A stretch of 39,121 nt of DNA, from positions 1 through 39,121 of IMG/VR virus record IMGVR_UViG_3300047457_001057, one strand, 5' to 3'. Numbering within the stretch: the first letter of the stretch is position 1; each line of letters begins with the position of its first letter. The DNA is from a virus. Under the pieces are notes generated by a model. It saw only the letters and a list, made by a program, of their open reading frames with translations, was not told the DNA's origin and searched no databases. Made by a program: the position numbers and the translations under genes. Below are positions 3,046 through 23,603 of this stretch, piece after piece.

Positions 3046-3057
3046 CCGCCCTTTTTT
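3030..3057. terminator. Bidirectional terminator between convergent gene blocks
   Basis: GGGCGG (3032-3037) pairs with CCGCCC (3046-3051) around an 8-base loop that contains the TAA stop of the + strand gene. Flanking A/T pairs extend the stem. A T6 run follows at 3052-3057, and an A-rich stretch (AAAAGAA) precedes the stem, so the hairpin can serve both strands. The - strand stop codon (3056-3058) overlaps the end of the T-run. Two convergent genes are therefore separated by only 10 bases and share one terminator. Confidence 0.9.
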
Positions 3058-6000: not shown

Positions 6001-7111
6001 GTGCTTCTTGTTGAGCTTGAATATTTGCTCTTTCTACTGCAGCAAAAATTGCTTTAAGCATTGCATCATCATGACGAGATAGATTTAAAGTAAGTGCGCC
6101 GACTTTATTAATGTCTGCAAGAGCTTTAAAAATTTCTTCTTGAGTAAGCTTACCGTCTGTGTATTGTCTAACAAAATTGCTTACATAATCTTTACGAAGT
6201 TTACTAATTCTACCTTGTAAATCTTCAGCATCAGCTTTTAAAGCTCTAAATACTGATCTAATACTTTCTGTATTAAACTCATCTTCATCTAGAAATATAT
6301 GCTCATTGGCTTCAGTAGAAAAATCTCCAGCTTTAATCCAAAGATTTATAATTCTTTGTGCATAGTAGATATCATCATAGCTTACAGCAGCATTTGTTAG
6401 TAAAGCTTTTACTTCTTTTAATTGAGTTTTAGCAAAATCCGTAACATCTTCAAAAGCTTCTACATTTTGAGATCTAATTACTCGACCTTCTGCTTCATCA
6501 ACTAAACGTTGTAAACTTTCTAAACGAGTTATAATTTTTCTATACTCAGTAGGATCTTCAGTAGATCTTAGAGCTTGACGTTGTTTAATAATTTCAGTAT
6601 TGATTTTATCTAAACGTTTGCGCTCTGCTCTTGCAAGTTTATCTGGAGCAGTGTCAATTAAATCATCTGTTTCAAATAAATTAATTTGTTGAGAATTAGG
6701 ATTGCTACTAGGGGCATTTGGGTAAACTTGTCTAAAACCTACTTCATCAAAATCGTTAACAACATACAAAGGGTCACCTTTAGCAGCTTCCCTTTGACGT
6801 TGCCTTTCTAGATTGACTGGGAGATAGTTGTATTTTAAAGTGAGCTCAAAAGTATTTCCCCAAGCTCTTTTAAAAGTAAAGTAGTGAGAAGTACCGTTTT
6901 TCTGGTTATACTTTCTAAGTTTGCTGGCAATGCCTGCAAAATTTTCTACTTTAGATTTAAAACCTATTTCTTTTTTGATTTCAGTTACTGATTTTACATC
7001 AGGAATTTGATAACCATTTGCTATAAAAGCTAAGTTAGCCAGCGTTTCTCCCGTCTGACTAACTAAAGTTTTCCACTCTTTTGAGTTTTTATTTGCGCAT
7101 GCTGTCGCCAT
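3056..7111 (-). CDS. Giant virion/ejection-type protein with C-terminal membrane segments
   Basis: A 1351-residue protein, last in the structural operon, starting 4 bases after the stop of the RNA polymerase-helicase gene. The N-terminus has a short motif, NKNSKEWKTLVSQTGE, followed by a conserved-looking NGYQIP, which I associate with large phage virion proteins. The region from about 150 to 880 is long, charged and helical. Hydrophobic patches occur near 890-930. A glycine-zipper-like segment lies at about 1140-1185 (repeated GxxxG in AAVGTMFLPGVGTALGAGIG). A strong transmembrane helix at about 1224-1243 (LYLMLGLMGMALFLKALAG) is followed by the acidic run DDDDEE. No enzyme motif was seen. 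Position beside the polymerase genes and the late membrane-insertion segments suggest a protein ejected with the DNA that helps form a channel in the host membrane. This is inference. Confidence 0.75.
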   Translation of the reverse strand: MATACANKNSKEWKTLVSQTGETLANLAFIANGYQIPDVKSVTEIKKEIGFKSKVENFAGIASKLRKYNQKNGTSHYFTFKRAWGNTFELTLKYNYLPVNLERQRQREAAKGDPLYVVNDFDEVGFRQVYPNAPSSNPNSQQINLFETDDLIDTAPDKLARAERKRLDKINTEIIKQRQALRSTEDPTEYRKIITRLESLQRLVDEAEGRVIRSQNVEAFEDVTDFAKTQLKEVKALLTNAAVSYDDIYYAQRIINLWIKAGDFSTEANEHIFLDEDEFNTESIRSVFRALKADAEDLQGRISKLRKDYVSNFVRQYTDGKLTQEEIFKALADINKVGALTLNLSRHDDAMLKAIFAAVERANIQAQQEAQEVWNKLDDLSKKFLKKAGGNFDILKQLTEDGRETGRAVHRFSSEFFEVRNRLLYEAFKQRDNKGDLKKDKTKVSAFFDWVNNNTISFDPRILFADSALEGGTMPDKFLYSRVKFDENSKAKHISDLKYHLGEKGYEYFIKRVEKKLEDFKIRREAIYDSMQLQPLSQTEKDALFEIWLKEHSPYWGMDMAENPASRVKERVNGKDIFYSPRGIREYVEQVPRKEIDGKPTKWYDKNFAKIEADEDLLNYHSFMMETLNSLRYMLPTHKQELLGVGVLPTIEKNLMDIFQEKGLMMGVIPFWDKMKQLQTTTDSATTVYSDIDPYTKNIEKNIQIQYIEDTENKVRDMVKVMSIEHQQRTGKPATELERREFKKQARDTLSKQKSWDVTKILKAYSLNVLAYKHKSFIEPQIKLAEQELKARKEIVTNKQGQPQFQDGELVTQEGLANLKSTFDFFMDSTFYGVGGRKVEGVTKTKLYTKAEETRKKELEELLKNEEDPATKEFIQAQIDSLGGFRTMSGVGDTALKYMTLKGLGWNFFSAFSNIGFGVISNLIQASDGRDYSMESLRKAYMLVTNSIGRNLSFNTWEGVNSNAVKIRTLMDKWDLLQTSNKEMFDMSQKSSMSKLKRFGPFSLQERSEYLNYAPIMVAVMMDKDKDGNPRFKATDPEGKTVTIWDAYDTNTGKLKEGFTTEVDEIRMIQKIKRIIEMNHGDYNNALQVKQTISGRLLSQFRTWMFEGFANRFEKPGDSPDYALSYGLDEPYIRKGRYRSYTKGQLLTTGAAVGTMFLPGVGTALGAGIGYVAGRLGGMETSESVVSDTLFTLKQLARKLMFQNTEFEKKFSAVDAANMRKNMTELYLMLGLMGMALFLKALAGDDDDEEQMVTNFLLNQTIRLRTDIGFYTNPLEFEKLTKTAVPMAQVVQDVHRVVGDIGALFNDNIEDDVFESGTFKDQPKWLIHAGQLLPGSAQGIRLYRTGDKVMD

Positions 7112-7115
7112 AATC

Positions 7116-10100
7116 TTATTTTCCGCAAATTAATAAATACTTTTCAATTGCGTCTCTGCTTATTGGAGATTCCGCAAGTAGATCTTCTTCTTGATTTCTC
7201 ATTTGTTGGTATGCTTCCCAATCATTATAATAGTCAGAGTTATCTTTTTCTGATGATGGAACATAACCTTCATCTTCTCCATATGCTTGATTTGGAGTAG
7301 TGTATTGTGTTAAGTCTACAGCACCTTGTAGAGAAGACATGCTAAAGGCTTTTCCTGCTGGTTTATTTTGAGCCGAGTACACAACTAGTTTAGTTGTTGG
7401 CCTAGATACAGCAGTATACATCATTCTGTTTTGCTGCAGCCTTCCACCAGGGAAACTCATAATATCGTCTTCTAGAACATAAACGTTTTTGTAAGTCGAT
7501 CCTTGAACCTTATGAGAGGTCATGGCATAGTTATATCCTAAGTCTACTATACTTTCTTTTAGATCCCAATAAGGTTGCCAAGTAATTTGTCTGCTTTTTG
7601 CTTTAACTGCTAAAGTTTTTAATGCACTCTTAAATGCAGCTTTATTTTCTGGAGAAATAGTAGTCATGGTAGTTGTTGTTTTTACCATGTTTCCTCCTGC
7701 ATCCATAGTTTCATATTCGACATTAAGACTAAACACTTCAAAACCGAGTATAGGATGAGTACCTAACGAATCTACTTTTTTAACCTTACCTTTAAAACCA
7801 TTAGCATATACTACCTCTTTGCCCTTCATAAATGGAGAATTAACTCTAATAATATCTCCTTTTACAAATGGCTCAGTAGGATTATTAAATAACTCCTCCC
7901 GCACTAGCTTAGCAAAGTTGTCTACAGTTTCATTTCGAGCTCCAATAATTACAACATTTTTAAGATTGTCAGGATCGTTTTTAAAGTCTGCTACAAATCC
8001 ATCGATTATATCTCTACGATTGTCTGTAAAAACTACTCCTGAATTAGTATTCTCATCAAAAGCTGTAGTACGACGAGTAAGTGGGTTTTGTTTTCCTTGT
8101 TCTCCTTTTTGAATTGATTCAATGTTTTCAGCAAATACATCAGTGACAGGAAGTATCGGACTTTCTTCTCCTTGTCGCATCCGCTCGCTAAGTTCTGCAA
8201 AATTTTCTGTGTTCTCTAGTAAAGCAAACACTGGACTATCTGCACTTTTTCCTGTTACTTCATTTATTGGCGGGATTTGTGCATTATCTCCCATAAAGAT
8301 TACTTTAGCATCTTTACGTTTTTTACGCATTAAGATTTTATATAAATCATCTCCTACCATTGATACTTCATCTACTATAATAAGTTTAGCATTCTCTATA
8401 GGATCTGATTTACCTGATGCATCAAAAGCACGTTGTTCTTCTGGATTCCGTTCTCTAAAGAACAATTCACCTGTTTTAGAATTATGGTCAGGTTGTAGTC
8501 CTAATGAACTCGCAAGAGTTCTTGTTTTAATTGCTTTAGGCAAATTACTTGCAAGTATTCCTCTAGCTTCATCAGAAACAGTAGTTCCAAGGATTGCATT
8601 TTGGGAAACGCCGCTCTTGTCCATTACCATCTTAACAATAGTAGTCTTTCCTGTACCGCCACGACCTTTAAGTAAGAATTGCTCTTGATCAGTTGCCAAG
8701 AAATTAGCCATTTTATCCAAAGCTATTGTCTGACCTTCGTTAGCAAATACTCCAGGGAAGATCTCGTACTTAGGAATAAATTCAGATTGTACAGTAGGTT
8801 CAGTAGGTTGAGTAGTAATTAACTTATCAAAGTTTTCATTAAATACTATATTAGAAGGTATAGGTCCTGCATTAGAGAACATATTTGCCATCTCTTGGCC
8901 TGTGTATCCATTGAGATTAGTTCCAGAATAATCAGATACTAAAAATTCTTTAGTTGGGTTTTGTTTAGCATACTCATATAATTTTTCAATTCCTTCTGTA
9001 ATTTCTTGAGCAGTTTTACTTCTTTTTTTCCCAGGACCCGTCACAGTAGTTATACCCCATGCTTGCCCTGAATCAGAAAGTTTGTTATCCATTTTTTCAC
9101 CCTGCTTAACTCCTGCAATATTATATGCAACTAGTGCTGCTCCTCCTGTACCTTTAGAAGGATTTCCATTAATACCAAGTGGGTTAGAACCAAATACAAA
9201 TATTTGATTAGGTTGTAAACTTGTTACTTTTCCTGAATATGTTTTTCTTCTAGTAGGTTGAGTAGATGGTTGAGTAGTAGAAATATTTTGATAAGCTTTA
9301 GCAAGAGCTTCTATAAATTTATTCTCTCCTGTAGATTCCCAGAATTTATCTCCTATTACATTATGTGTAGATTGTTCAATATAAGCTAAACCACCTCTTT
9401 CATTTATTCCTTGAACTAACTCAGGATGTTGTTTAAGTTTTTCTGTAAGAATATCTGTCATTATAGAGAAAGTATCTCCAATCTTACCACCTCTAACCTT
9501 ACCACCTTTTAAATCATAACCTGCTTGATTAAACTCTCCAGATTTCCAAGTTTGATAAGCATGTTCAGAATTTACATATTCTTTTCCTTTATAAGTTAAT
9601 CCTACTGTATTACCTACATTGGTAAGTTTTTTAGCAAACTCAGAACCTTTACTTGAAATATTTTCAGGTTTAACACTAGTAGATGGTTGAGCAGTAGGTT
9701 TAGTAGAAATTGTTGGTGTTTTAGTAACTCCTGTAGTAGCAGTAGCTGGCTTAGATTTTAAATCTTCATATTTCTTTTGACCATTAGCTTTATTCATTGG
9801 TTTAAACACAGAGAAATCTCCTTGGGCAAACTCTGCTTTGGTTACTTTTCCACTAGAGTCTACTTCAAACTTATATTTAGTTCCAAATTCAATAAATTCT
9901 TCTGTCTCAATAAGAGTTTTCTTCAGCTCTTCTTGATTAGCTTGAATCAAATCCATAGAGTCTTTGATAGCATAAGCAAGTGCTGATCCTGGCTGAACAT
10001 CAAGGCCTAGAGCATTTAGGATTTCTAAAATGGCAGATTTGATTTTCTCCCACATAGAAACTCCTGTTTCGTCTTTAATATTGTTTAGCCTTTCTTGGAA

Positions 10101-13100
10101 ACCAGGATCTGTCATGGCCATAGTAACAAACTCCGTAAGTTTGATAGCTCCATAGTATTTACTAAGATCTCCTGCTTCTAAGAAACTTTGTAATTTTTTA
10201 TACTCATTACTTGCTTCAGTACTGTTAGCACCAAAATTAGCTTGAGCATTTTTCCAATTGTTATATAATTCCGTAAACTGATTTAATCTTTCTGATCCTT
10301 CTTGTGCTACTAAAGTTTCTATATATTTATTTTGTAACTCTTGAAGATTTCTAATACTTTTAAACTGCTTTACTGGTAAAGTAGAATCAAAAGGATCCTT
10401 CATATATTCCTGAATACTTTTAGAAGTATGAGCATGAATTAATTCATGGGTAACTACAGTGGCTAAGTTATCTACAGACTGATTAGTAGGATGAGCTAAG
10501 TTTATTGTAAGAGTATTATTAGTTGTATTAAAGCTTCCTCTTCCAGATATATTATTATCATAGACAACTTTAAAATCAGCAGGCAATTGCAGTGATCTTA
10601 AGGTCTCAACTAAGTGACTATTTAGACTAGATATCTCAGTAGAATCTGCAAGATTGTTTAATAGATCATCGATAGCTTCTTTGGTGCCAGATAACTTTTC
10701 TGAAATATTAAGACTCTTGGTTCCTGTTAGAGGCGCAGGGTTATTTACTACTCCATTAGTAAATGCCTGAGTAGGCTTAGTCGGAATGTTAGGAATAGTA
10801 TAGCCAGGGGCAGAAATCTGCGGTGCTGGACTAGGAGCTACTCTATTTACTCTTTCTGTAGGAGTTGGATTTTTGCTATCAGAATTATACTGTACAAATC
10901 CATAACTACCCGCAAGAGTAGGAATTCTACGGTAAACTCTATCAAGGCTATCAAACTCAAACAATGCGTACTTGCCAGGCAGTTTAGAATCGTAGATAGA
11001 TAAGAACTTAGTCTGTTCCATTGTAGGTTCTCCTGTTATCGGATCTGTTGCTTCTACAAAATTGGATTCTAATAACTCTTGTTTAAGTACAAATGGATTA
11101 TCAGGGATTTTTGTATTGTTTCCTTCTAACATTCCTAGTGTTACAGTTTTAGCTCGTTCAGGATTATTTTGGAAAAACTGTCTAGTAAATGCAGAAGGCT
11201 GTGAGTATACTACTCCATATTCAGAAACGTTTCCAAAGAAAGTATCTACAAAATCAAAAGGAACTCCTGATAGGTATTCTCCAAATCCTAGAGTTTTAAG
11301 GTAAGAAATAGGAATGTATTTTAAATACTGTTTAGCGCCTTGGTTACCGCCTTCTAAGAAAGCTGCTGTTACAAGTTCTTGAGCCAGCATTCTGGAAGTA
11401 TACTCTACACGTTTACCGTCAACAGTAAATGTCCCTACTTTAAAGTTTTTATCTAACAAGTAAATAAACCCATCATAAATATTACGTTCATCTAGGTTTT
11501 CTCCTGTTGCTGCTTCAAAGTTTATTCTAGAGATTTGTCCGTTATTATTAAGATCAAAGTCTAATTTATTTAAGAATCCATTTCTTTGGAACCAAGCTTG
11601 ACCTTGAACTAAACTTAACTTATGAGCTAAGCTCATATTATCTTTACTATCTATAAAAAGTCTTCTTCTTTCTAGATCAGGATTTTCTGTAAATAGATTA
11701 GTATCTGTATTAGCAAATAAGAAAGATCTAATATCTTTAAATACTTCTTGTTTAAACTCTGCATCTGCTCGCATTGTTTTTATCTGTCTTGGCAAATGCG
11801 CTGATAATTCTTCTACAAGAGTAGTAAATCCTGTTTTCTTGTACGGGAAGTATTTTTCAAATACATTATTGGCAAACATAGTACCGTAGACAGCAGCAAA
11901 TCCATTGATTGTTTTAGGAGATATTGCTAATCCTGCAGGAGTATTTTGAGTAAGGCCTAGTAGATTACCTGCGTTAAAAATAGGGCCCTTATTTATGCCT
12001 CTAATTTGTTTTACTTTTGCCTCTGTTTCTATAAGAGATTTAGGAACTCCTTTAGATTCAGAGTTAATAGTAGATTGTAACTGGTTTATTTCTTGGCCAC
12101 GAGAAGTTAGCTCAAGAAACTTTTCTAAAGTAGCTAATTGTTCAAGGTTATAATCAGGAGTTATTTTATCAGTAGGAACTTTTAAGCTAATCTGTGTAGA
12201 TTTTACATTGTTTAAAAGTTGCTCAGCAGATTTAGACTTAAGAGTAAGTAAACTAGCTCCATCAAGTTTATCATACTTTCCTTCAGGATCATATTTTTTT
12301 ACAAGATCCATAAAGATTTTTGTCTCTATATCTGCTTGAAAAACACTAAGAGAAGATCTTGCTTCTTTAATAGTATCTACAAATTCCCAAATAATCTCTT
12401 GAGTTAGTAATCCAGATATCTCATCTTCTTCAAAGCCTAGTATAGTCATAGCTCTAATAGCATCAAAGGTTTGATCATTGATGTTAAGCTTATCTAGGAT
12501 TTGTTCTTTTTCGTTATCTACAGCAGAAGACTGCAGTGATCTAATTACGAGAGATTTTAATTTTAGAGAAGCTTTTTCTTCAGAGCTAAGTTCTCGACCT
12601 TGCATTTTAGCTTGATCAATAATTGCTTGAGATCTTAGAGTATATTTGTTTGACAAATCTCCTCTAGAAACTGAAGTACCAAATGTAGCAATTGGTAAGT
12701 TAGCGTCTAAAATTTCAGCAGCAGTAGGTGTTTTGGGCTCGGTAAATGTACCAAATAGTTCTTCCTGCATTTCAGGAGTAAGATTTATCATAACTAAATC
12801 TTTTCCTTGAGCACTAGCATTAAAAGTAGAATCCAGCGAGAAATATCCTACTCCATTTTTACCTGCAGTTGCATTAATAAACTTAGTACGTTGATACGTC
12901 TCAGAAAGAATAGATAAAATAGGTTCTACTAAACCTTTTTCAGACCTAGCTTTGTCGATTTCAATTGATAATTCTTTAAATTCTCCAGAAGAGTCAAGTG
13001 CTAAAATAGCTGCAATAACTTCTGGGTTTTTACTTAGCATCACTTTTAAATGTATGTCTAAGATTTCATTTTGACGAGCTGCTTTGTAAGATCTGTTAAG

Positions 13101-14297
13101 CACAGAAATAGTATTAACAGCTTCGTCTATTTTATTTTTAAACTCATCAAGAATTGGGTACCCTTTTCCTTTTTCAGTCGTCATAGATTCTTCTATGAGG
13201 GCGCTTACTTTTTGAGCAAGCTCACTAGGAATAGGTTCATTCTTTTCGTTATACTCTTGTTTTTCTTTGATATACTTATCGATAAGCTTACGATCTTCTT
13301 TAGAAAGTTTGTACTCTTCTTTAAGATCTTCTAATTGTTGCTTAGCAATAGTTAAAAGCTTTTCTATTTTGCCTGCATCTTTTACAAAGTTTGTGTAGAG
13401 TTTACCGTCTTTATAGAAATGGTTGTACATGTACGTGTACAATTTATCAACGTCAAAGTCAGATCCCATTTGCTTGGTAAAATCTCTTGGCGCTAAAACT
13501 AGATCTCCTGATGTTTCTGGCAAGAATCCTACTATTTCTACAGCAGCCATTGAGTTTTGCTTCTGAGTAGGAATACGGAAACCAAAAAGCTGTAAAAGTT
13601 TTTCTGGAATCTTTTCCATGTTTAGCATCATTCTACCATCGGGGCCCTTAGTTGTAAACTCAGAAAGCTCAAGAATTTCTCCTGATTCATTTCTAAATTT
13701 AAAAGGAATCATGATCTGAGCAGGTAACATTTTTTTGTTTACAGGATCCCATCTAAGAGGCTGTAAACCTTTTGTTGCATCAAATTTGTCAGTGAATACT
13801 ATATTAGAATTTTTGATAACTCCTGCAGCATCATCTCCTTCTTTAATTCTAAAACCTTCTTCTGAACCAAGTACATAAGAGTTACCAGGAAGTTTTTGCT
13901 TAACTACTTTGTTACTAACTAATGAAGTTAGCAAACTTTCAAACTTACTAGCATAAGGGGATGCCCAAAGAGGAATTTTAAAATCAGTAGCATCTTCATC
14001 GATAGTGCCATCTTCTTTGCGAACTACATTAAGTTCTAATGCTGAAAGCATGTTAATTGGATAACCAGCACGGTTTTTTATTTCATCCGCTAAAATACTT
14101 GCTAGCTTAGTAGCAGGTATAGAAGTGCGGGTTACTTCTTCTGTTTTTTTACTAAGAACTTTAGAAGAATCTGTTTTAAATCCTTTTAGATCTACTTTAT
14201 TATCTGAGATTAGATTATCTAGTAGACCATTATTTAAAAGTTCTTTGAACTGGTTTTCAGAAATCCAGTTACCATTAACAAAATACTGACAAGCCAT
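7116..14297 (-). CDS. Polyvalent virion RNA polymerase (beta-prime-like) fused to protease-like, NADAR, macro-like and Dda-like helicase domains
   Basis: A 2393-residue modular protein. Residues 1 to about 1100 hold an RNA polymerase core: RIPTQKQNSM followed by GSDFDVDKLY, with catalytic Asp280, 282 and 284 matching the DxDxD of crAss-like and YonO-type polymerases. After a Pro-rich linker comes a metallopeptidase-like region with HELIH at 1284-1288 and Glu1389 as possible third ligand. About 1552-1668 is a NADAR domain (SEHAYQ with His1579; GDKFWES with Trp1653). About 1690-1828 is an FGSN-type macro-like domain (FVFGSN at 1700-1705). About 1840-2350 is an SF1B helicase close to T4 Dda: Walker A GRGGTGKTT (1878-1886), Walker B VDEVSM (Asp1976), GDNAQIPP, a small beta insert, TSHKVQGST (His2262) and MYTAVSRP. 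Pro/Thr linkers separate the modules. Such polyvalent proteins are thought to be injected with phage DNA. The beta-like half is probably in the 2937-residue protein upstream. Confidence 0.9.
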   Translation of the reverse strand: MACQYFVNGNWISENQFKELLNNGLLDNLISDNKVDLKGFKTDSSKVLSKKTEEVTRTSIPATKLASILADEIKNRAGYPINMLSALELNVVRKEDGTIDEDATDFKIPLWASPYASKFESLLTSLVSNKVVKQKLPGNSYVLGSEEGFRIKEGDDAAGVIKNSNIVFTDKFDATKGLQPLRWDPVNKKMLPAQIMIPFKFRNESGEILELSEFTTKGPDGRMMLNMEKIPEKLLQLFGFRIPTQKQNSMAAVEIVGFLPETSGDLVLAPRDFTKQMGSDFDVDKLYTYMYNHFYKDGKLYTNFVKDAGKIEKLLTIAKQQLEDLKEEYKLSKEDRKLIDKYIKEKQEYNEKNEPIPSELAQKVSALIEESMTTEKGKGYPILDEFKNKIDEAVNTISVLNRSYKAARQNEILDIHLKVMLSKNPEVIAAILALDSSGEFKELSIEIDKARSEKGLVEPILSILSETYQRTKFINATAGKNGVGYFSLDSTFNASAQGKDLVMINLTPEMQEELFGTFTEPKTPTAAEILDANLPIATFGTSVSRGDLSNKYTLRSQAIIDQAKMQGRELSSEEKASLKLKSLVIRSLQSSAVDNEKEQILDKLNINDQTFDAIRAMTILGFEEDEISGLLTQEIIWEFVDTIKEARSSLSVFQADIETKIFMDLVKKYDPEGKYDKLDGASLLTLKSKSAEQLLNNVKSTQISLKVPTDKITPDYNLEQLATLEKFLELTSRGQEINQLQSTINSESKGVPKSLIETEAKVKQIRGINKGPIFNAGNLLGLTQNTPAGLAISPKTINGFAAVYGTMFANNVFEKYFPYKKTGFTTLVEELSAHLPRQIKTMRADAEFKQEVFKDIRSFLFANTDTNLFTENPDLERRRLFIDSKDNMSLAHKLSLVQGQAWFQRNGFLNKLDFDLNNNGQISRINFEAATGENLDERNIYDGFIYLLDKNFKVGTFTVDGKRVEYTSRMLAQELVTAAFLEGGNQGAKQYLKYIPISYLKTLGFGEYLSGVPFDFVDTFFGNVSEYGVVYSQPSAFTRQFFQNNPERAKTVTLGMLEGNNTKIPDNPFVLKQELLESNFVEATDPITGEPTMEQTKFLSIYDSKLPGKYALFEFDSLDRVYRRIPTLAGSYGFVQYNSDSKNPTPTERVNRVAPSPAPQISAPGYTIPNIPTKPTQAFTNGVVNNPAPLTGTKSLNISEKLSGTKEAIDDLLNNLADSTEISSLNSHLVETLRSLQLPADFKVVYDNNISGRGSFNTTNNTLTINLAHPTNQSVDNLATVVTHELIHAHTSKSIQEYMKDPFDSTLPVKQFKSIRNLQELQNKYIETLVAQEGSERLNQFTELYNNWKNAQANFGANSTEASNEYKKLQSFLEAGDLSKYYGAIKLTEFVTMAMTDPGFQERLNNIKDETGVSMWEKIKSAILEILNALGLDVQPGSALAYAIKDSMDLIQANQEELKKTLIETEEFIEFGTKYKFEVDSSGKVTKAEFAQGDFSVFKPMNKANGQKKYEDLKSKPATATTGVTKTPTISTKPTAQPSTSVKPENISSKGSEFAKKLTNVGNTVGLTYKGKEYVNSEHAYQTWKSGEFNQAGYDLKGGKVRGGKIGDTFSIMTDILTEKLKQHPELVQGINERGGLAYIEQSTHNVIGDKFWESTGENKFIEALAKAYQNISTTQPSTQPTRRKTYSGKVTSLQPNQIFVFGSNPLGINGNPSKGTGGAALVAYNIAGVKQGEKMDNKLSDSGQAWGITTVTGPGKKRSKTAQEITEGIEKLYEYAKQNPTKEFLVSDYSGTNLNGYTGQEMANMFSNAGPIPSNIVFNENFDKLITTQPTEPTVQSEFIPKYEIFPGVFANEGQTIALDKMANFLATDQEQFLLKGRGGTGKTTIVKMVMDKSGVSQNAILGTTVSDEARGILASNLPKAIKTRTLASSLGLQPDHNSKTGELFFRERNPEEQRAFDASGKSDPIENAKLIIVDEVSMVGDDLYKILMRKKRKDAKVIFMGDNAQIPPINEVTGKSADSPVFALLENTENFAELSERMRQGEESPILPVTDVFAENIESIQKGEQGKQNPLTRRTTAFDENTNSGVVFTDNRRDIIDGFVADFKNDPDNLKNVVIIGARNETVDNFAKLVREELFNNPTEPFVKGDIIRVNSPFMKGKEVVYANGFKGKVKKVDSLGTHPILGFEVFSLNVEYETMDAGGNMVKTTTTMTTISPENKAAFKSALKTLAVKAKSRQITWQPYWDLKESIVDLGYNYAMTSHKVQGSTYKNVYVLEDDIMSFPGGRLQQNRMMYTAVSRPTTKLVVYSAQNKPAGKAFSMSSLQGAVDLTQYTTPNQAYGEDEGYVPSSEKDNSDYYNDWEAYQQMRNQEEDLLAESPISRDAIEKYLLICGK
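8791..8817. repeat. Linker repeat copy 1 (macro-like/helicase junction)
   Basis: A short imperfect repeat of the unit GTAGGTTGAGTAGT (+ strand), which encodes Thr-Gln-Pro-Thr type linkers on the - strand. This copy lies between the macro-like and helicase modules of the 2393-residue protein. Related copies are at 9251-9280 and 9678-9710. Confidence 0.6.
9251..9280. repeat. Linker repeat copy 2 (NADAR/macro-like junction)
   Basis: Two tandem versions of the unit (GTAGGTTGAGTAGA then TGGTTGAGTAGTAG) between the NADAR and macro-like modules. It shares about 13-14 bases with copy 1. On the coding strand it reads as alternating Gln-Pro-Ser/Thr codons. Confidence 0.6.
9678..9710. repeat. Linker repeat copy 3 (protease-like/NADAR junction)
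   Basis: AGTAGATGGTTGAGCAGTAG with one mismatch to copy 2, followed by GTTTAGTAGAAAT, also similar to the flank of copy 2. It lies just before the NADAR module. All three copies sit exactly at domain boundaries. Confidence 0.55.
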
Positions 14298-14304
14298 TTG
14301 TTAT

Positions 14305-14790
14305 TTATTTACCTAGTTCTTGATCGAACAATAGCATATTATCTGTAAGAGCTATTCTAGCTAGCAAATCTCCATACTCACCTACTGCTCCTACTTGGTG
14401 AGTAGTAAAATCTTGAAGTAATAATCTTACTTTTAAGGATAACTCTGTTTTTTGTGCCGACTCTTCGTAAGCCATCAAAAGATCTTTTTCCATTTTGTAA
14501 GCCATCATTAAAGCTCCCTTAATATCAGCGCAATCACATTGACCAGCTTGTAATGCAGGAACTTCTAATTCTGCTCCAAGATCATTAGCAAATGTTTCAA
14601 GTTTAAGATAATGTTCTCTTTCACTATTAGACTCTGATACAAAAAACTTCTCTGCGCCAAAGTAACCTAAAGACTTCATTCTGTTAGAAAGTTTTAGATA
14701 AGTTTGGGAAGCAGTAAGTTCAAAAGTCCCAAACTTATTTAGTTCTTTTAATTCTGCTTCAGTTAGTATGACATCTTTAAACTGTTCCAT
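14305..14790 (-). CDS. Ferritin-like non-heme iron protein
   Basis: A 161-residue four-helix protein matching bacterial non-heme ferritin along its length. Compared with E. coli FtnA from memory, helix A carries Glu24 (TFELTASQTY), helix B has the GYFGAEKFF pattern and the ExxH ligand pair Glu57/His60, helix C carries Glu101 (KMEKDLL), and helix D keeps Gln132 (FTTHQV), but the following Glu is Ala135 and the Glu before Gln is His131. Most ferroxidase ligands are present, so iron oxidation and storage is plausible; the helix D changes may weaken one site. Dps or rubrerythrin-like proteins are alternatives. It starts at a TAATG junction with the 2937-residue gene and ends 7 bases before the RNA polymerase gene, so it is co-translated with virion proteins. 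Confidence 0.82.
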   Translation of the reverse strand: MEQFKDVILTEAELKELNKFGTFELTASQTYLKLSNRMKSLGYFGAEKFFVSESNSEREHYLKLETFANDLGAELEVPALQAGQCDCADIKGALMMAYKMEKDLLMAYEESAQKTELSLKVRLLLQDFTTHQVGAVGEYGDLLARIALTDNMLLFDQELGK

Positions 14791-17700
14791 TAGTCACATT
14801 TTTTATTAGTATCGGTTTCCTCATCAAAGAAGAAGTTCATCTTAGCTTTTGCTAATTGTTCTACTATCTTATCAAAGTTTTTGTTTATAAAGTTAACTCT
14901 TTCTAAGGTATCTTCCCCTACTTCATCAGCAAAATCTTGTTGAATGCTTACTTTCTCTATTGGCGAAGCTTTTGATAATCTTTCATTTAGCTCTGCTACT
15001 TTGTCAAAAAGAACAGGTTCTGGAATAGATAATAGACTTTCAAAATTTTCTTCATATGTTACAGTTTGGGTTAAACCTAACTGACGAGAAAGTTTATCTT
15101 TTGCATATAAAAACAAATCTTGATAAGCATTATTATACTGATCCATTAAATCTTGACCTGTTACGCCGTCTTCGATTTCTACGTCTAGCATATCAGCAAA
15201 CAAAAGTTTTGTTTCTTGTGTACCTCGGTTAAGTTCGGATTTATCTCGTTTGTAGGGAACATCTTGCTGAATTCTAAAATTAGCTCTTGAAAGGAGTAAA
15301 GTATTGTCAGGCTTAACTACAAAATTATCTACAACATTACCATTATTATCAAATACTTCTATTGGATTTTGTACAGCTCCTACTTTGTTAGCTGTTCCAA
15401 AAGAAGCTCTTACAAAAGAAGGACTTCCGTCAGCGCCTACTTTATTTTTCATCGTTTCTTCAAATGTTTCAAGACCTTTACGTATCTTATCTATTTGAAG
15501 ACCTGCAGTAAGTTCAGGAAGTAAGGGAAAACTAGAAGATTTTATATAAACTCTATTATCTGCATTTTCTTCTACTGATGTAATATTGCCTACATATACA
15601 GGTTTAATAGGTTGCATTACCATTCCTAGTTCCTCAAAGCTTAGCTTAGTAGTGCTGTTAAAGATTCCTTTGCTTTGCGCTTCTAGTTTAGTTTTAAAGC
15701 TGTTATATTGCGCATCAGTAAGTCTTCCTAATTGCTTTAAAACATACAAGTGTTCTTTCCAAGTAGTATATTCTTGGGCATCTGATCCTTCAATACCTGA
15801 ATAATTCTTAGAATAATTTTTAATTATTTTATCAAAAAATTCTTTTTGTACTGAATCTTTAACATTAACACTATCAAGTTTTTTATCCTGTAAAAAAACC
15901 TGATAATATTGATTATTTACACTGTTAGCTAATTCTATACCTGGAGCAATATCTCCTGCAAGACGTTTACCTATATTAGCAAAAGTGGCTTTTAAATTTT
16001 GTTCTAAAGTATTTCTACTATCAAACTTAGCATATAGGGCAGGATCTCCTGCAAATAATTTAAACGATTCTGCATTTGAAATTAGGTAATTAAATACATA
16101 ATCCATAGCAGCGTACTTAACCTTAGTAATGTCTTTTCCAGTTTTAGCTACCCACTTCATGTATTCTTTATCCATGAAAGGAAACTGTTCTACAACTTTG
16201 CCTTTATCGTCTTTTATTGCTTCGCCTATTCCAAGTTTTTTCCAGTCTGCAAGTTTTCTTTCTATAAGAGTATTGAAAAAATTTTCTAACTCTTCTAAGA
16301 CAGCCTTTTTAACTTCGGCAGAATATAGTTTATCATCTTTGTTGATAACTATATCTCTAAAAGTCATAGTAGATCCGTCTTCTAACATAATCTCTAGAGT
16401 ATTTAAAGACGGTATAAAGTAAAAATAGTTCGGCTCGTATCCTGCAATATTAGTAGCTTGCTTATCGCGCATTCTTTTAATTTCAGGAGTTACTACAGCG
16501 TCATATAGAGTTTCAAAGTTTTTCTTAGATACCTTACCATCTTCTAACAAGAACTCTCGTGCTAATGCATTTATAGCCAACATAGTAGTTTTGTCAGACA
16601 TAGTAGGGTAGAAGAAACTTACTTGTCGTCTGGCTACATTATCTATTACTGATCCTGATTTATTCTGGAAGAATCCTAGTTTAGTTACTTCGTGTTCTGC
16701 AGTAGTTAAATTATTAAGCTTTCTATTATCTTGAGAATCTGACCATTTCTTTTTAAGTGCCTCTAAAGACAAGTAGCTTAAGCTAAATGTATTTCTGGTT
16801 GCTTTACCAATAGTTTTATCGCTAGTTAGTTCATTAAGCCACAAACTGTCTTTAACAAAAGAAATGCTTTTAAGCTTGTCTATTAAACTTTGATTTACAA
16901 ATTGCTCAGTCTCACTGTTATATGCAGTAAGATCGCGCATGCGGTTTACCAAGTAATTATTATTACCATAAGAGTAAATAGTTTTACCGCCTGCTTGGAA
17001 GGAGTTACTAAAAGTATTTAAACTATTACTAGCTTCTAAAGAAGCTAGAGCTTTTATTGCAGAGTCATTTAGTAACTCAGCATCAGCCAATGTTAGATCT
17101 TGTTTTTTCTCTAGTTCTTTTGCCAATATATTTACTAGTCCTGAATCACTTAAAAACAATCCTTCCCAAGTTTTACGGCCTTTATTACTATATAGTCCTT
17201 TACGTAAATCATCATAAGTATCATCAGAAATTACTATTCCAAATTGTCCTAACCAGTTTGCTAGTTCATCATTGGTAACTTCTTTTGGATTCTTTTTCCA
17301 ATTGTTTGCTTGAGTAATCAGATCTTTAACAACTGTCTTGTCAAAAACATATTCGTCGTTTTCGTTAATATTTATAAGATTACTTTGAGTAGCTACTCCT
17401 TTAAGATTAGATTTCCAGATTGCTCTAATTCTTTGTTCTGTGGAAGACTTGTTACTTGACCACTTTTGCAAAGAATAGTTACCATTCATGTCTCGGCTCC
17501 ACATAACAAACTGCATGTCGATATGATGCTTGGCCATGTCTGAAACAAACTCATTCTGTATTTTTTCAGGAGCTGCTTCTAGGTCATCTATAACTGATTG
17601 AATCCATGGGAACTTTGTTTTATAAAGTTCCATAACTTCCAACATATGATCATAGTCTGCAGGACGGTTTGCTAAAATTTCATGAAGCGTGTCGTAGGCT

Positions 17701-20700
17701 ACATCGTAAGGAAGAATCTCTGGAAGACCTAATACATTATCTACAGGTTCACCGTTTTCATCTCTATCTTGAATTGAAGAGAAAAACTTTTTAAGATCTG
17801 CAGAAGAAGTAGCCTTAGAGCTAATAGTAAATGCCCAGTCATCTGTGTAGACTAATTTTTCTAGACCTAGTGCTTCTTCAGAATCGTTCATTGTAACGTC
17901 TTCTGTAACAGATCCAACTGTCAACAAAGACATATGTTGGTTTACTAGATCTTTAAGTTTATCAAACTGATCTACTACAGCTTCTAATCTAGCTGCTTTG
18001 TTGACTAATCCTGCTTCCTGATAAAATCCAGCTAGTTGTTTAAATGAATCTTTGTGCTTTTCAAATATAGGCCCAACTTTTACAGTTTGTTTTCCACCTT
18101 TATTTTTAGCTGCCAGAGTTTGTTTAATAATATCTGAGGCAATAAAATGCACTAAAGATCTTTGTGTAGCAGGATCAATACCTCGGATAACTAGATTATC
18201 AATCTCTGTTCTAATCGATGCTATTTCTGATTCAGATAACGGCGCAATCATATCGTCAATATCTGAGAAATCTTCTCCTATATCTGGAGCATCTTTAGTA
18301 TTTTTATTAATAGTAATCTTTTTGCCATTAGGCAAAGTGATTGTTTTAGTTTGTGATGCTCTTTCTATAAATAACTCTTTGGCTCGTTGATAAGAATCTA
18401 TTGCTTGTTGCTTGTCAGCAAATCCTGCATCTTTTAATTCTTGTTCTGGTATAGCTCCTTCTAGTATATTATCAAGTACAGTATTAATTTGTTCTTCAGT
18501 AACTCCTAAAGCAGTTAAAATTTCTTCAGCGTTTAATTCTATTTGACTTTTACCTGCAGCTTCTGCTACTTCTGCTTCTGGAGTGACTGGTTCTTGAGTA
18601 GGTTGTTGTTCTAAAACAGCTAGTTCTTCTTTAGCTTTATTAATTTTAGCATCTATTTCTGTTGTATCTACTTTAGTAGTTGCTTCAGTGCTAGGTCTAG
18701 AAAGAGAAGAATCTTTCATAGGAGAGCTAACATATTCTATTACCCCTCTTTCTATTACTTCAATGTTTCCATTAGCACTTCTGGTTACTTTTGCAGGTTT
18801 TACAGTTCTAATGCCGTTTGCATTTTGATTAAAGGCATTTGCTTCGTCATAAAAATTTTTAAATGTACTATCTGGAAAATTTAAAGATCTTTTAAAAGCC
18901 ATCCCTAATTCAGGATCAAAATATAATAATCCGCTACTAGAATCTTTTGAATCTTTTTCTAATCTATAAAGAGACACGTTGGTCTTCTTGCTATCAGTAG
19001 TATCCCAACCTCCGCTTGTATATCCGACTACTGCTTTAGGTGTATATGGCTGACCCTCTTGTTGAGTAGATAATAACTGCTCTTTTTCTTTTTCTAATTT
19101 TTCTATCTCTGCTTTTTTATTCTCTATTTCAGCTTGATTAGTAGCAGTACCTTCTAAAGCAGTTAGTTCTGCATCATATTTTTGGTCAACTGGATTAGGC
19201 TTTGTTCTATCGTACTTATATTTCTTGTGTTCTTCTTCTCTACGCCTTTTTATATCAGCTTTCTTAGCTTCTATAGAATCTGCTGCTGGAGCAGTTGTAG
19301 TTTCTTTTAACGCAGCTAGTTCTGCTTCCGCAGCATCCATTCTATCTCTAATAGATAAGAACTCTGGATTGCTCTGTATCTCTTCATTAGTTAATCCTTT
19401 AGCCTCTAATTCTTCAGCTTTTTTAATTACTTCAAGTCGAATACTATTAAATTCAGATTGTTTAGCTTCAATAGTTTCTGCAGAAACTGCTGGTTGAGAT
19501 ACAGGCTGTGTGACTGTAGGCATAACACGCGTTGCTTTAGGTCTAGCTTTAGCGACAGCAGCTGGCTTAAGATTTTTAAAGTCAGCAAAACTTGTATCAA
19601 ATAAAATAGTCGGCTGAATAGTATAAGCCCACTTTGGAGCTTCTTCGGTGCCAGTGTTTACAGATAAAATATTAGTCTTATGAGTTTGTTTTACAAGCTC
19701 AGAATATTTCATAGAGCTAGTCTCGCCTTCTCGGTTAAGAATAACTACAGCTTTGCTATTAGATGCTAGTAAATTTCTGTCAGCATTAGACATCATGTTT
19801 TGCAAAACGCCTTGTAGCTTAGATAACATTTGAGCATTACGAAGTTTGCCATCAGTAGTCTTATTCCAGTTTTTAGAAATAACTCCTGTAAACTGTATTA
19901 CTTTAGTTCCATCTTTTTTAGTATAGCTTCCTGTCTCGACTCCTGGTCTACCAAATTCTATACCTGTAGGAGTTACTGCTATTAAAGGATATTTAGATTT
20001 AAGTTTACTATCTCCTTGTCCTCCTCTAATTAAAAAAGGCTCAAGTCCTGCAGCTTCTGTAGGGAATAAGTAAACAAACTGTCGTATATATTTATTAAGA
20101 CCTACTTCATCAGTGATATCTAAACCTAGATCTGATTCAGCAATTGCCTTTACAATAGGATGATTACTATCTTGAGAAAGATATCCTTCTATTGCAAATA
20201 CAATAGATTTAGCATGTTCTTCAATAACTTTGCTACGTTCTAATGGAATAGGTATAAATTCTTTAGGCCCTACTTTTACTATTGCATAGACTCTACCGTC
20301 TTGTGGAGTACTTGGTAGAATCTTACCTCCTTCTCCTAATAATGTTTCAGGCTCTCCAGGTAATTGAAATCCTTGATCTTTACCGACAGCTAGAATTAAA
20401 TTAGGGTCAGGCATTGCTTCAGATACGCTAATGGCTTTACCATCAAAGCTTTTAAATAATCGACCAAAGCTTTTGTATTCTATTTTAGTCTTAACAATAC
20501 CTTTAGTTACAATAGCTTTACGGATAGCAAAGTTTCTTGCTTTATCCATAGCTATTTGCTCTTCTGAACCACTTAAGTTTTCTTCTTTATACCATGCATT
20601 ATCATGAACATAAAACAAAGAATTAGTACTTCCAGGTAAAGTAACTTTAATTGGAACTTCTGCAATATATTCGTCTAATTCATTAAGCGGTATTCCTTGT

Positions 20701-23603
20701 TCATTTGCTTTTTTTATTAGCTCTGCTTCTCTTAAAGTCCACTCTATTTTTTCTCTTGTGTTAGATGTAGGATCATATTTTTCACCAATATAATCTTTAT
20801 CTACTTGCATTTCAACTTCAGTACCTGCTGTTAAAAAATCAGGATCTAGTAGTTGAATATTATCTAAACTATTAGTAATTTCTTCACGATTTACTTTAGC
20901 TAGTTCTTCTGTTTGATTAAATTCTCTAGACAAGAAAGCTCCACGGTTATAACCTTCTTCTGGTCTTTGAAAATTATACGTAAGATTGCCTTGTTCGTCT
21001 TGACCTGTTACAGCGCTTTGATCAGATTCTAAAAGTTTTTCTGCAGTTTCTGCTACTCCTTCTTCTACTGATGAAGTTTCTTTATCAGGGTTTAAATAAT
21101 CTGGAGGAATAGTAGTGTCGAAGCTTTCTGTTTCGGACTTTACTTCGTTTTCTATTTCTTCAGGACCTTGGGTAAAAGCGCTGAGAGGATCTCCGCCAGA
21201 TATTTCTTCTTCAAGTGTAGTATCTTCGCCGTTTAATTTAGCTGCTTGGATATTTACTCGCTCTAATAAATTATCTTTATCTGCTCTAGATAATTCTGCT
21301 TGCTCAATTTCTTGTCTTAATGCATCTAGATTTTCTAAATCAGTTGATTTAATCTTTTGATCAAACTTAGCTATAGTTACTGCTAATTCTTTTTCTTTAG
21401 CATTTTGAGCATTTTTAATTTTAAGCTCATTAATCTTAGCATCAGCTTGTTTTTTAAACTCAGCATTTTCTGTAGAGTTTTTTAATCGTTCTGCAACAGC
21501 AATGTCAGTAGTATTTTTTAATTCCTCCTGCATTGCAGTCATTTTAGCTGCTTCAGCTTTTTCAGCTTTAACTTTTTCTTGATGTTTTTTGCTAGTAAGT
21601 TCTTTAAACTCTTTTTCGTTATTTCTTAATACAGCATTGATTTCTTCAGCTTGTTCATTATAACCTTTAACTGCTTCATAAGAAGGAAGTTGTTTTACTT
21701 CATTAAGAAACTGTTCGTAAATCTCTTTATTTTTTTGAGTATCTCCTGTATTGTTTTCTATATCAGAAGTAGAATAAATTAAAGGAGCTTTTTCAGTTCG
21801 AGTTTCTTTTCCTGTTACCTCTCCTTCTTTTTTAAAAAGTATTTCTTTTTCATTTTCAAAAGAATACTTACTAGCAATATTCCGAACATCTTTGCTAAAT
21901 TGAAGATCTGCTTCTTTTTTTACATTTTCAATCTGATTACTAGCCCTTTCTGCGCGAATCTTGTTAGCTCTATTAAAGAATAATTCTTCTGAATTTTCAT
22001 ATCCTTCAAAATTATTATAGACTTCTTCTAGTTCCTGTAGATTTTTGATAGCAGTTTTAGCACGATCTATATATTCTTGACCTACTTCTTCTACTGGTCT
22101 AGATGCTTCGTGTTGATAAAGGTTTTCTAAAATTTCTGTAGTACCTGATCTAAATGCTTTTAATGCTTGATTTTCAAACATATCTTCTTTAAGACGTTCC
22201 ATTTCTGCAACATCTCCTTTAGCATTCGCAGCTTTTAATTTTTCTTGAAATACTATTTGATCTTTAAAGTCTTGTAAAACATCAGTTGTTTTAACACCTT
22301 TTTGTTTAAGCTCGTCTAAAACTTGTTGTTGTTCAGTGTATTTATCTCTTTCATATTGGACTTTGCTAACCCTGTTTCCTTGCTCATCTCGCATAGAACC
22401 AGGACCGTATTTAGAATATTCTAAAGCTTTTGTTCCTCCAGTCTGAGCAATACCGCCTATAGCTCCTAGAAAAGCAGCTTCTAGACCTTCCATGCTTTTA
22501 ATATCTTCTAAAGCTTTTCCTAAAGAATAATCTTTGCCTCTACCTGCAGCCATACCAGCTTTAGATGCTGCCAAGTTTATTAACTCTTCTACAGCTTCTT
22601 GTCCTCCTTCTAATGCAACTGTCCCTAATGCTTTCCCTAAAGTAGGGGCTTCAAAGATCTTTCTACTATATTTTAATGGCGTAATAAATGCAGAAGCAGA
22701 ACTAAGATTTAAAAGAATATTAGCTCTGTTAATATTCATAGTAGTAGCTGCTGCAATGGAGGCAGCTTGTTTTGCTTTAGCCTTATCTCCTCCATTCTTT
22801 TTAAATTGTTCTTCATAAGTATCTCTAAATACTTGCGTAGCCTCAAGCACTGCTTCTGATTGATTTAAAGCAACAGCATTAAATAATCCCGCAGTACCTT
22901 GTTGTAATTTTTTAGAAGTTTCTGCAGTAGCTCCTAAAGCTTTAACTAATTGCCTTGACCTTGTTAAAGTACCTACACCTTTTAATCCTAAAGAAACAAG
23001 TTTACCCATACCTGCCCCTTGAAGTAAAAAAGATCCTACAGATTCTATAAGACCTGATCCGCGAGACATCCACCATGCATAATCCCCAAGTTGCATTGAT
23101 TCTCCAGGATTTGCTTCATAAATAGGGAACCAATCTTCATCTACAGTTTTTTTAGCATCCATTGCCCAGTTAACAATGCCATTATTTGCAGCATGTTCGG
23201 CATCGAAATATCCTGGAAGATCTAACATAGAAGAAAAACCTGAAAGTGTCTGAGGTATAATATTAGTAGCAACTCTTGCTAAAGCATGTCCTGTTTTTTC
23301 CCAATTAGATTGATAATCAGCTCTTAGACTATTTAAATCTTCTAATGAATTTTGTCTACCTCTTAAAGTATTTTTATCAATATAATCTTCATATTTATCA
23401 TAATAACCTTCTGGAAGATCTGGATAATAAGAACTTATTCCTTTAAATTTAGAAGGAGCTGCATAAGTACCACTTTCTTCTAATTTTTTAGGATCATATA
23501 CTAACCCAGCATCTATAGCTGCTTGTTCTGATTTTAATAAATCCTGTTTAAGAGGAGAATCTTTAGGAACAAGTTCTACTGGTTTGGTTTTATTTTTTCT
23601 CAT
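14790..23603 (-). CDS. Giant virion protein, N-terminal ejection/membrane region and candidate beta-like RNA polymerase C-terminus
   Basis: A 2937-residue protein, the largest in the window. The N-terminus has a conserved-looking SLRADYQSNWEKTGHALAR segment, then a Gly-rich hydrophobic stretch at about 172-212 (VGSFLLQGAGMGKLVSLGLK) and further small-residue helices to about 390, suggesting membrane insertion. About 400-830 is charged coiled coil. A Pro-rich linker with further coiled coil lies at about 1370-1520, and another linker near 1670-1690. The C-terminal third is globular. It includes YPTMSDKTTM near 2331, a VYIKSSSFPLLPEL segment near 2686, and FRIQQDVPYKRDKSELNRGT near 2775. These Lys-rich C-terminal segments are my best candidate for the beta-type double-psi barrel of a split crAss-like RNA polymerase whose catalytic half is encoded one gene downstream. 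That assignment is inference from gene order and pattern. Translation starts in a 38-base gap with no Shine-Dalgarno. Confidence 0.8.
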   Translation of the reverse strand: MRKNKTKPVELVPKDSPLKQDLLKSEQAAIDAGLVYDPKKLEESGTYAAPSKFKGISSYYPDLPEGYYDKYEDYIDKNTLRGRQNSLEDLNSLRADYQSNWEKTGHALARVATNIIPQTLSGFSSMLDLPGYFDAEHAANNGIVNWAMDAKKTVDEDWFPIYEANPGESMQLGDYAWWMSRGSGLIESVGSFLLQGAGMGKLVSLGLKGVGTLTRSRQLVKALGATAETSKKLQQGTAGLFNAVALNQSEAVLEATQVFRDTYEEQFKKNGGDKAKAKQAASIAAATTMNINRANILLNLSSASAFITPLKYSRKIFEAPTLGKALGTVALEGGQEAVEELINLAASKAGMAAGRGKDYSLGKALEDIKSMEGLEAAFLGAIGGIAQTGGTKALEYSKYGPGSMRDEQGNRVSKVQYERDKYTEQQQVLDELKQKGVKTTDVLQDFKDQIVFQEKLKAANAKGDVAEMERLKEDMFENQALKAFRSGTTEILENLYQHEASRPVEEVGQEYIDRAKTAIKNLQELEEVYNNFEGYENSEELFFNRANKIRAERASNQIENVKKEADLQFSKDVRNIASKYSFENEKEILFKKEGEVTGKETRTEKAPLIYSTSDIENNTGDTQKNKEIYEQFLNEVKQLPSYEAVKGYNEQAEEINAVLRNNEKEFKELTSKKHQEKVKAEKAEAAKMTAMQEELKNTTDIAVAERLKNSTENAEFKKQADAKINELKIKNAQNAKEKELAVTIAKFDQKIKSTDLENLDALRQEIEQAELSRADKDNLLERVNIQAAKLNGEDTTLEEEISGGDPLSAFTQGPEEIENEVKSETESFDTTIPPDYLNPDKETSSVEEGVAETAEKLLESDQSAVTGQDEQGNLTYNFQRPEEGYNRGAFLSREFNQTEELAKVNREEITNSLDNIQLLDPDFLTAGTEVEMQVDKDYIGEKYDPTSNTREKIEWTLREAELIKKANEQGIPLNELDEYIAEVPIKVTLPGSTNSLFYVHDNAWYKEENLSGSEEQIAMDKARNFAIRKAIVTKGIVKTKIEYKSFGRLFKSFDGKAISVSEAMPDPNLILAVGKDQGFQLPGEPETLLGEGGKILPSTPQDGRVYAIVKVGPKEFIPIPLERSKVIEEHAKSIVFAIEGYLSQDSNHPIVKAIAESDLGLDITDEVGLNKYIRQFVYLFPTEAAGLEPFLIRGGQGDSKLKSKYPLIAVTPTGIEFGRPGVETGSYTKKDGTKVIQFTGVISKNWNKTTDGKLRNAQMLSKLQGVLQNMMSNADRNLLASNSKAVVILNREGETSSMKYSELVKQTHKTNILSVNTGTEEAPKWAYTIQPTILFDTSFADFKNLKPAAVAKARPKATRVMPTVTQPVSQPAVSAETIEAKQSEFNSIRLEVIKKAEELEAKGLTNEEIQSNPEFLSIRDRMDAAEAELAALKETTTAPAADSIEAKKADIKRRREEEHKKYKYDRTKPNPVDQKYDAELTALEGTATNQAEIENKKAEIEKLEKEKEQLLSTQQEGQPYTPKAVVGYTSGGWDTTDSKKTNVSLYRLEKDSKDSSSGLLYFDPELGMAFKRSLNFPDSTFKNFYDEANAFNQNANGIRTVKPAKVTRSANGNIEVIERGVIEYVSSPMKDSSLSRPSTEATTKVDTTEIDAKINKAKEELAVLEQQPTQEPVTPEAEVAEAAGKSQIELNAEEILTALGVTEEQINTVLDNILEGAIPEQELKDAGFADKQQAIDSYQRAKELFIERASQTKTITLPNGKKITINKNTKDAPDIGEDFSDIDDMIAPLSESEIASIRTEIDNLVIRGIDPATQRSLVHFIASDIIKQTLAAKNKGGKQTVKVGPIFEKHKDSFKQLAGFYQEAGLVNKAARLEAVVDQFDKLKDLVNQHMSLLTVGSVTEDVTMNDSEEALGLEKLVYTDDWAFTISSKATSSADLKKFFSSIQDRDENGEPVDNVLGLPEILPYDVAYDTLHEILANRPADYDHMLEVMELYKTKFPWIQSVIDDLEAAPEKIQNEFVSDMAKHHIDMQFVMWSRDMNGNYSLQKWSSNKSSTEQRIRAIWKSNLKGVATQSNLININENDEYVFDKTVVKDLITQANNWKKNPKEVTNDELANWLGQFGIVISDDTYDDLRKGLYSNKGRKTWEGLFLSDSGLVNILAKELEKKQDLTLADAELLNDSAIKALASLEASNSLNTFSNSFQAGGKTIYSYGNNNYLVNRMRDLTAYNSETEQFVNQSLIDKLKSISFVKDSLWLNELTSDKTIGKATRNTFSLSYLSLEALKKKWSDSQDNRKLNNLTTAEHEVTKLGFFQNKSGSVIDNVARRQVSFFYPTMSDKTTMLAINALAREFLLEDGKVSKKNFETLYDAVVTPEIKRMRDKQATNIAGYEPNYFYFIPSLNTLEIMLEDGSTMTFRDIVINKDDKLYSAEVKKAVLEELENFFNTLIERKLADWKKLGIGEAIKDDKGKVVEQFPFMDKEYMKWVAKTGKDITKVKYAAMDYVFNYLISNAESFKLFAGDPALYAKFDSRNTLEQNLKATFANIGKRLAGDIAPGIELANSVNNQYYQVFLQDKKLDSVNVKDSVQKEFFDKIIKNYSKNYSGIEGSDAQEYTTWKEHLYVLKQLGRLTDAQYNSFKTKLEAQSKGIFNSTTKLSFEELGMVMQPIKPVYVGNITSVEENADNRVYIKSSSFPLLPELTAGLQIDKIRKGLETFEETMKNKVGADGSPSFVRASFGTANKVGAVQNPIEVFDNNGNVVDNFVVKPDNTLLLSRANFRIQQDVPYKRDKSELNRGTQETKLLFADMLDVEIEDGVTGQDLMDQYNNAYQDLFLYAKDKLSRQLGLTQTVTYEENFESLLSIPEPVLFDKVAELNERLSKASPIEKVSIQQDFADEVGEDTLERVNFINKNFDKIVEQLAKAKMNFFFDEETDTNKKCD

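Follow-up and report, generated by a model that had tools for sequence, protein, structure and literature searches.

A ferritin gene carried at the junction between giant virion-cargo genes of phages

In phage phi14:2, both barrels of the virion RNA polymerase are held in one chain (PMC7886860), and in Flavobacterium phage Fpv1 both polymerase parts are likewise found within one 4401-aa chain. The giant proteins encoded around such polymerases travel with the particle: phi14:2 gp065-gp067 are recorded as virion proteins by MS/MS, and, in phi-crAss001, gp47, gp49 and gp50 belong to the virion cargo (PMC10172136). ART-PolyVal, LPD38 and DarB-like parts mark the polyvalent proteins, which are predicted to be packaged and injected (PMC5512222). 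Phages that carry proteins of the ferritin superfamily are also known: Dps and Mn-catalase were described in gut phages (PMC8008677), and single phage ferritins are present in structure databases. In a search of openly accessible journal papers, we found none on a ferritin at a polymerase or polyvalent-protein junction.

We analysed a viral DNA stretch of 39,121 nucleotides (IMG/VR record IMGVR_UViG_3300047457_001057), hereafter the window, for which an original prediction from the letters alone had proposed a ferritin encoded between two giant genes. The ferritin ORF lies exactly where it had been placed, on the minus strand, which the original prediction had not given (Table 1). Its start overlaps the stop of the 2937-residue ORF in the TAATG junction that had been described (stop 14792-14790, start 14790-14788), and the gap to the 2393-residue ORF is 7 nt. 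A search with HMMs assigned it to Pfam PF00210 at 47.9 bits (E 1.7e-12, curated cut-off 24.5 bits), so that the match is not due to chance; the ferritins of five other loci (L034, L036, L043, L112 and L158) also scored above the cut-off. Solved PDB ferritins were matched directly by the window sequence (phmmer). The AlphaFold (AF2) model (pLDDT 92.2) has four long helices and a short fifth (11-40, 44-70, 90-112, 119-149 and 152-159, the last being the short C-terminal E helix), and the solved folds nearest to this single chain in Foldseek are 24-mer ferritins (E. coli FtnA, TM 0.90). The di-iron ligands that had been named, E24, E57, H60, E101 and Q132, are all present at their predicted positions; none of the five varies among 15 close relatives or, more widely, among the aligned phage ferritins (90/90). 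Y31 joins these ligands in the window ferritin, and the position is Y or W among the 90. Together with purifying selection, seen in dN/dS values of 0.03-0.13 across seven pairs (0.056 against L001), the complete di-iron site argues that the function of the protein has been kept.

Table 1. Features of the ferritin locus in the window (positions are those of the window).
Feature	Position	Strand	Basis
Ferritin ORF	14305..14790	(-)	161 aa, ATG start
TAATG stop/start overlap, 2937-aa ORF to ferritin	14788..14792	(-)	sequence
Giant ORF, 2937 aa, N-terminal (first-barrel) polymerase half near C-terminus	14790..23603	(-)	phrog_16227, Fpv1, phi14:2 gp066
aa 1928-2854 of 2937-aa ORF, collinear with uninterrupted Fpv1 chain up to seam	15042..17822	(-)	Fpv1 alignment
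C-terminal tail, aa 2855-2937 of 2937-aa ORF, ending ..INKNFDKIVEQL...NKKCD	14793..15041	(-)	Cys-tail
N-terminal leader, aa 1-64 of 2393-aa ORF (MACQYFVNGNWISENQFKELLNNGLLDNLI..)	14106..14297	(-)	Cys-leader
C-terminal (beta-prime-like) polymerase half, aa 65-1452 of 2393-aa ORF	9942..14105	(-)	Fpv1 3006-4332, E 2e-91; PDB 6vr4
DFDVDK catalytic metal motif, aa 280-285 of 2393-aa ORF	13443..13460	(-)	aligns with DFDID (gp066), DYDID (Fpv1)
Giant ORF, 2393 aa: leader, second polymerase half, C-terminal SF1 helicase, end ..YLLICGK	7116..14297	(-)	sequence and profiles
Dda/RecD2-like helicase domain, aa 1837-2309 of 2393-aa ORF	7371..8789	(-)	phrog_325 E 8.8e-75; PDB 9kwf, 3upu
Third giant, 1351 aa, Cys-leader (MATACANKNSKEW)	3056..7111	(-)	sequence

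Two other identities were considered and rejected: Dps, since the best structural matches are 24-mer ferritins and Dps entries rank far lower, and rubrerythrin, whose profile scored 18 bits against a cut-off of 22.8. Within the ferritins, the third (C) iron site of E. coli FtnA is formed by E126, E129 and E130, an acidic site that the phage protein does not have, residues 131 and 135 not being Glu. Across all 90 phage ferritins, position 131 is mostly I, H or T and position 135 is A or S; bacterial outgroup ferritins read EQHEEE in this region. The last-helix E-x-x-H of bacterioferritin (E127, H130) is also absent, the phage ferritin having Q132 and A/S135. The absence of both motifs marks the site as H-type, and the window ferritin gene is intact, selected and of the non-heme, H-type ferroxidase kind.

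The original prediction had called the neighbouring giants RNA polymerase-type, and both indeed belong to the crAss-like virion RNA polymerase (phrog_16227, Fpv1, phi14:2 gp066). It had not noted that the two flanks are halves of what is one polypeptide elsewhere. Along the 4401 positions of phrog_16227, 2749-3001 match aa 2600-2853 of the 2937-aa ORF, and 3008-3996 match the N-terminal part of the 2393-aa ORF. The collinear stretch of the 2937-aa ORF aligns with residues 2003-3002 of the Fpv1 chain (E 9e-91), and this ORF also matches residues 955-1127 of phi14:2 gp066 in tblastn (E 6e-5), a region that precedes the gp066 DFDID motif at 1361. The profile of the second half (A6) matched PDB 6vr4, the phi14:2 RNA polymerase (E 2.9e-17); a profile search of the PDB with the upstream half gave no match, and its identity is based on the Fpv1 and phi14:2 tblastn results. 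In the window and in four other loci of this split arrangement (arrangement A, or set A), the polymerase is not one polypeptide, the ferritin splitting it at a seam at Fpv1 2990-3006. The left half ends at Fpv1 residue 2990-3002 in all five. The right half starts at 3003-3006 in each of them but L003, where its alignment starts earlier, at 2942.

The unit found at the window seam consists of a tail of about 83 aa, the ferritin and a leader of about 64 aa. The tail is absent at the Fpv1 seam and is common to unrelated giants upstream of ferritin genes; the leader is common to split and unsplit polymerases, and its AF2 model (pLDDT 63) shows a hairpin plus a helix only. Because the polymerases of Fpv1, phi14:2 and crAss001-like phages run through the seam, insertion of the unit is the simpler reading. 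The third giant of the window occupies the place equivalent to that of the RNAP-associated gp065 of phi14:2. The 2393-aa ORF also has an A1S_2505-type domain at aa 1699-1823, and within set A the product of this gene varies between 1479 and 2513 aa in length, which suggests gain and loss of C-terminal modules.

Three scans of IMG/VR recovered at least 121 relatives of the ferritin in viral contigs, and the loci that were kept hold 93 distinct ferritins. Two scans of 84,980 prokaryote species found one family member, on a phage-like 5.4-kb contig where the upstream gene bears the C-terminal tail motif of the phage loci. Since these scans rest on short conserved peptides, ordinary ferritins were not expected to appear, and the result speaks to the rarity of the phage-type family in cellular genomes. 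When the family profile was run against 80 Pseudomonadota genomes, ordinary ferritins scored E 1e-16 to 1e-21 and the phage-like contig 5e-43. The family is found almost only in phages. We rejected a recent capture from a host: the one match among these species is on a phage-like contig, the GC content of the gene equals that of its neighbours (0.34) and, in a ferritin tree built without Bacteroidota ferritins, the phage rows form one side (91/86) against four Pseudomonadota rows, two of them identical, and one distant outgroup row. Among annotated phages, tblastn gave no match for the window ferritin (P0001) or that of L036; the ferritins of L034 and L043 retrieved four unannotated records, two from Staphylococcus (one marked UNVERIFIED), which are probably host DNA, and two faecal contigs of 4-5 kb.

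The late, virion-gene context that had been proposed for the ferritin held up across very different phages, of 27-66% GC, as did its position. In most of the 93 loci, the gene lies between a giant ending like I..NF..I..L....K..C and a giant beginning M(A/S)..C.Y. Cysteine is present in the last ten residues of 59/62 giants upstream of a ferritin, compared with 17/140 other giants, and in the first ten residues of 65/65 downstream giants, compared with 10/122 others; many of these loci are related and the counts are hence not independent, but the pattern nonetheless spans unrelated giants. In the second leader group, the ferritin is directly upstream of the leader in 52 of 53 loci, the last being cut by the contig end. 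Across the wider group, ART-PolyVal, LPD38 and DarB-like parts are found in the giants that flank the ferritin, and orthologues of the flanking giants are proven virion cargo, a proof that applies to the neighbours' homologues only. All together, these comparisons show that a tail-ferritin-leader unit is carried at the junction between giant virion-cargo genes.

Other settings were also seen. In the L042-L052 group, the ferritin (L043:6036-6527) lies between the portal (L043:3701-6025) and a pair of 380-aa and 451-aa proteins, suspected to be scaffold and capsid, with a NUMOD4/HNH endonuclease nearby (L043:9193-9750). In a myovirus-like phage, the ferritin (L036:9935-10432, L038:1836-2335) lies in a terminase-portal-sheath block and overlaps the preceding 218-aa gene.

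In consecutive cargo giants, a Cys stands at the C-terminal end (..KKCD, ..LLICGK, ..TIC, ..QECK) and the N-terminus reads M(A/S)..C, as seen in the window (14793-14820, 14270-14297 and 7095-7140), phi14:2 (L212), Fpv1 (L021) and L022. In phi14:2, gp067 ends ..NTIC, gp066 begins MACK and ends ..QECK, and gp065 begins MSCK. Such termini occur without a ferritin in phi14:2, Fpv1 and crAss001-like phages and at the L141, L144 and L151 junctions; we read them as a mark of cargo giants and not of ferritin. For the same reason, we rejected ferritin-specific docking as the sole explanation of the tail and leader. A role of the terminal cysteines as a packaging, linking or processing signal is possible; this signature was not described in the papers checked. 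The strict adjacency of the ferritin to tail and leader peptides could also mean that the cage serves as a structural hub on which Cys-tailed and Cys-led giants dock while the head is being assembled, with iron chemistry secondary. However, tail/leader pairs stand without a ferritin in phi14:2, Fpv1, L141 and L151, and the ferroxidase ligands are invariant, although a pure scaffold would not need them; we regard this as very improbable.

A second arrangement was found in set B (L002, L004, L008-L010, L012, L013, L016 and L017), where the ferritin lies upstream of a giant with a window-type leader (E 3e-10 to 4e-18). On contigs of sufficient length, it can be seen to be an unsplit polymerase, about 3,100-3,300 aa long. 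Ferritin identity averages 67% between sets A and B and 65% within set A, whereas the second polymerase half is 28% identical between the sets and 59% within set A. With ferritins so similar, polymerases so diverged and a ferritin tree that mixes the two sets, the ferritin, within its unit, has been exchanged between set A and set B phages. At L141/L144 and L151, a 35-bp gap joins giants that are homologues of the set B giants, with 31-39% identity across most of the length, and no ferritin was found on these contigs of 47-84 kb. The ferritin is thus dispensable in some lineages and not required for cargo handling. Near the C-terminus of the upstream giant of one ferritin-free phage (L151:497-5965), a 197-aa piece is 55% identical to part of the L023 downstream giant, suggesting domain swapping between cargo giants. 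Comparison of L157:4919-5488 with L158:5478-5975 revealed that an endonuclease-like ORF has entered the ferritin gene at its 5' end. This ORF contains NUMOD3 repeats (Pfam) and, by eye, a GIY-YIG-like start, and it opens with the first five ferritin codons of the near relative L158, the ferritin start being re-formed downstream.

Could the ferritin be a selfish or passenger cassette, held at the tail-leader junction mainly by conserved flanks or homing endonucleases and of mild benefit only? Its exchange between phages with polymerases only 28% identical, trees that mix the arrangements, the NUMOD3/GIY-YIG-like insertion at the ferritin start in L157 and the splitting of the polymerase in arrangement A would all fit. 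Nevertheless, the full di-iron site in 90/90 sequences and the dN/dS range point to a function that is kept, almost every locus of the second leader group has the ferritin, and only one endonuclease was found adjoining a ferritin, so that we consider a passenger improbable.

We think it possible, if somewhat short of an even chance, that the protein is an intracellular auxiliary product: made late in the infected cell, it would serve host and phage metabolism as a buffer of iron and peroxide without ever entering the virion, and the cargo operon would set its timing only. The Dps and Mn-catalase genes of gut phages are read in this way (PMC8008677), the ferritin lacks the Cys termini of cargo proteins, it is lost in some lineages, and its cage is too large for the tail. 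However, a free-standing metabolic gene would not be expected to hold its place between two cargo giants across 27-66% GC, and the ferritin is almost never separated from the leader gene. An obvious iron client, the class I ribonucleotide reductase small subunit, was not found in 12 contigs (possibly incomplete), and iron supply to this enzyme was rejected on that basis.

The reading that we prefer, at about an even chance, is that the ferritin is a late, working ferroxidase of the virion-cargo module, with a slight lean to the virion. It would be made late, together with the cargo giants, as suggested by its position and the TAATG coupling, from which packaging does not follow; a scan for promoters or terminators at the gene gave none above chance. 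The subunits would assemble into a 24-subunit cage, which would use O2 or H2O2 to oxidise Fe(II) and would sequester it, so that Fenton chemistry would not harm the freshly synthesised DNA and injected proteins. Part of the ferritin at least may be associated with the head or packaged in it beside the cargo; we lean slightly to this, since the gene keeps strictly to the cargo block even though the phages infect very different hosts. Packaged ferritin might stay in the head as a cage or leave as unfolded subunits.

The original prediction had put forward packaging, protection of DNA at ejection or scavenging of iron during infection as roles of the protein; all three are conjectural. Packaging in the virion is plausible, if on the less likely side. 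In its favour are the position lock and a second leader group in which the gene is nearly fixed (52/53); the lack of terminal Cys in the window ferritin, the ferritin-free sister phages and the size of the cage relative to tail constrictions argue against it. An intact ferritin cage measures about 12 nm. The tail of phi-crAss001 has constrictions under 50 Angstrom (PMC10172136), and an intact cage could thus not pass such a tail. That many unrelated phages carry a ferritin cage inside the head as a virion component, made with the injected giants and giving the particle its own iron/peroxide chemistry at packaging or entry, is a tentative proposal, less likely than not.

A phage-bound family nearly always found beside cargo giants suggests that phages may use ferritin chemistry in their infection machinery. 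With a widespread ferritin of their own linked to the genes for injected proteins, phages would bring iron and peroxide handling into the entry machinery, and the debate about iron in phage particles would gain a concrete case that can be tested. At this locus, a captured gene splits a virion RNA polymerase into two subunits at the catalytic seam, which is relevant to the origin and break-up of multi-subunit polymerases. In uncultured phages, the terminal-cysteine signature could be used as a simple marker to pick out giants that are candidates for injection.

Of the known systems, the polyvalent proteins share their three marker parts with the ferritin-flanking giants, but their survey mentions neither ferritin nor terminal cysteines (PMC5512222). 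The Dps (a mini-ferritin) and Mn-catalase of gut phages (Gratiaviridae, Flandersviridae) are also ferritin-superfamily di-iron/di-manganese proteins carried by phages, but they belong to other families and were not described at a polymerase or polyvalent-protein junction (PMC8008677). Closer are the predicted phage ferritin folds BFVD A0A8D9C9X5 ('putative bacterial non-heme ferritin, uncultured marine phage') and A0A8S5Q7U4 (TM 0.81-0.87 to our model), known by annotation only, with no context or family described in the literature searched. Three BFVD entries named prohead protease (A0A6J7XDU5, A0A6J7WPK9 and A0A6J7WIS1) matched the model weakly; they may represent fusions of a ferritin-like domain to a head gene, or no more than helical bundles. 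With the non-heme 24-mer ferritins (E. coli FtnA 4ztt, V. cholerae 3qz3, P. furiosus 2x17 and animal H chains), the phage ferritin shares the four-helix bundle with short E helix (TM about 0.90) and the ferroxidase ligands E, E-x-x-H, E and Q; identity to the solved members is about 20%, the signature AVGEYGDL sets the phage protein apart, and, unlike them, it is encoded within a virion-cargo block. Finally, both halves of the crAss-like virion RNA polymerase (phi14:2 gp066, PDB 6vr4; the Fpv1 chain) and its DFDxD motif are also present in the window, but what is one chain in phi14:2 and Fpv1 is encoded here as two polypeptides with the ferritin gene between them.
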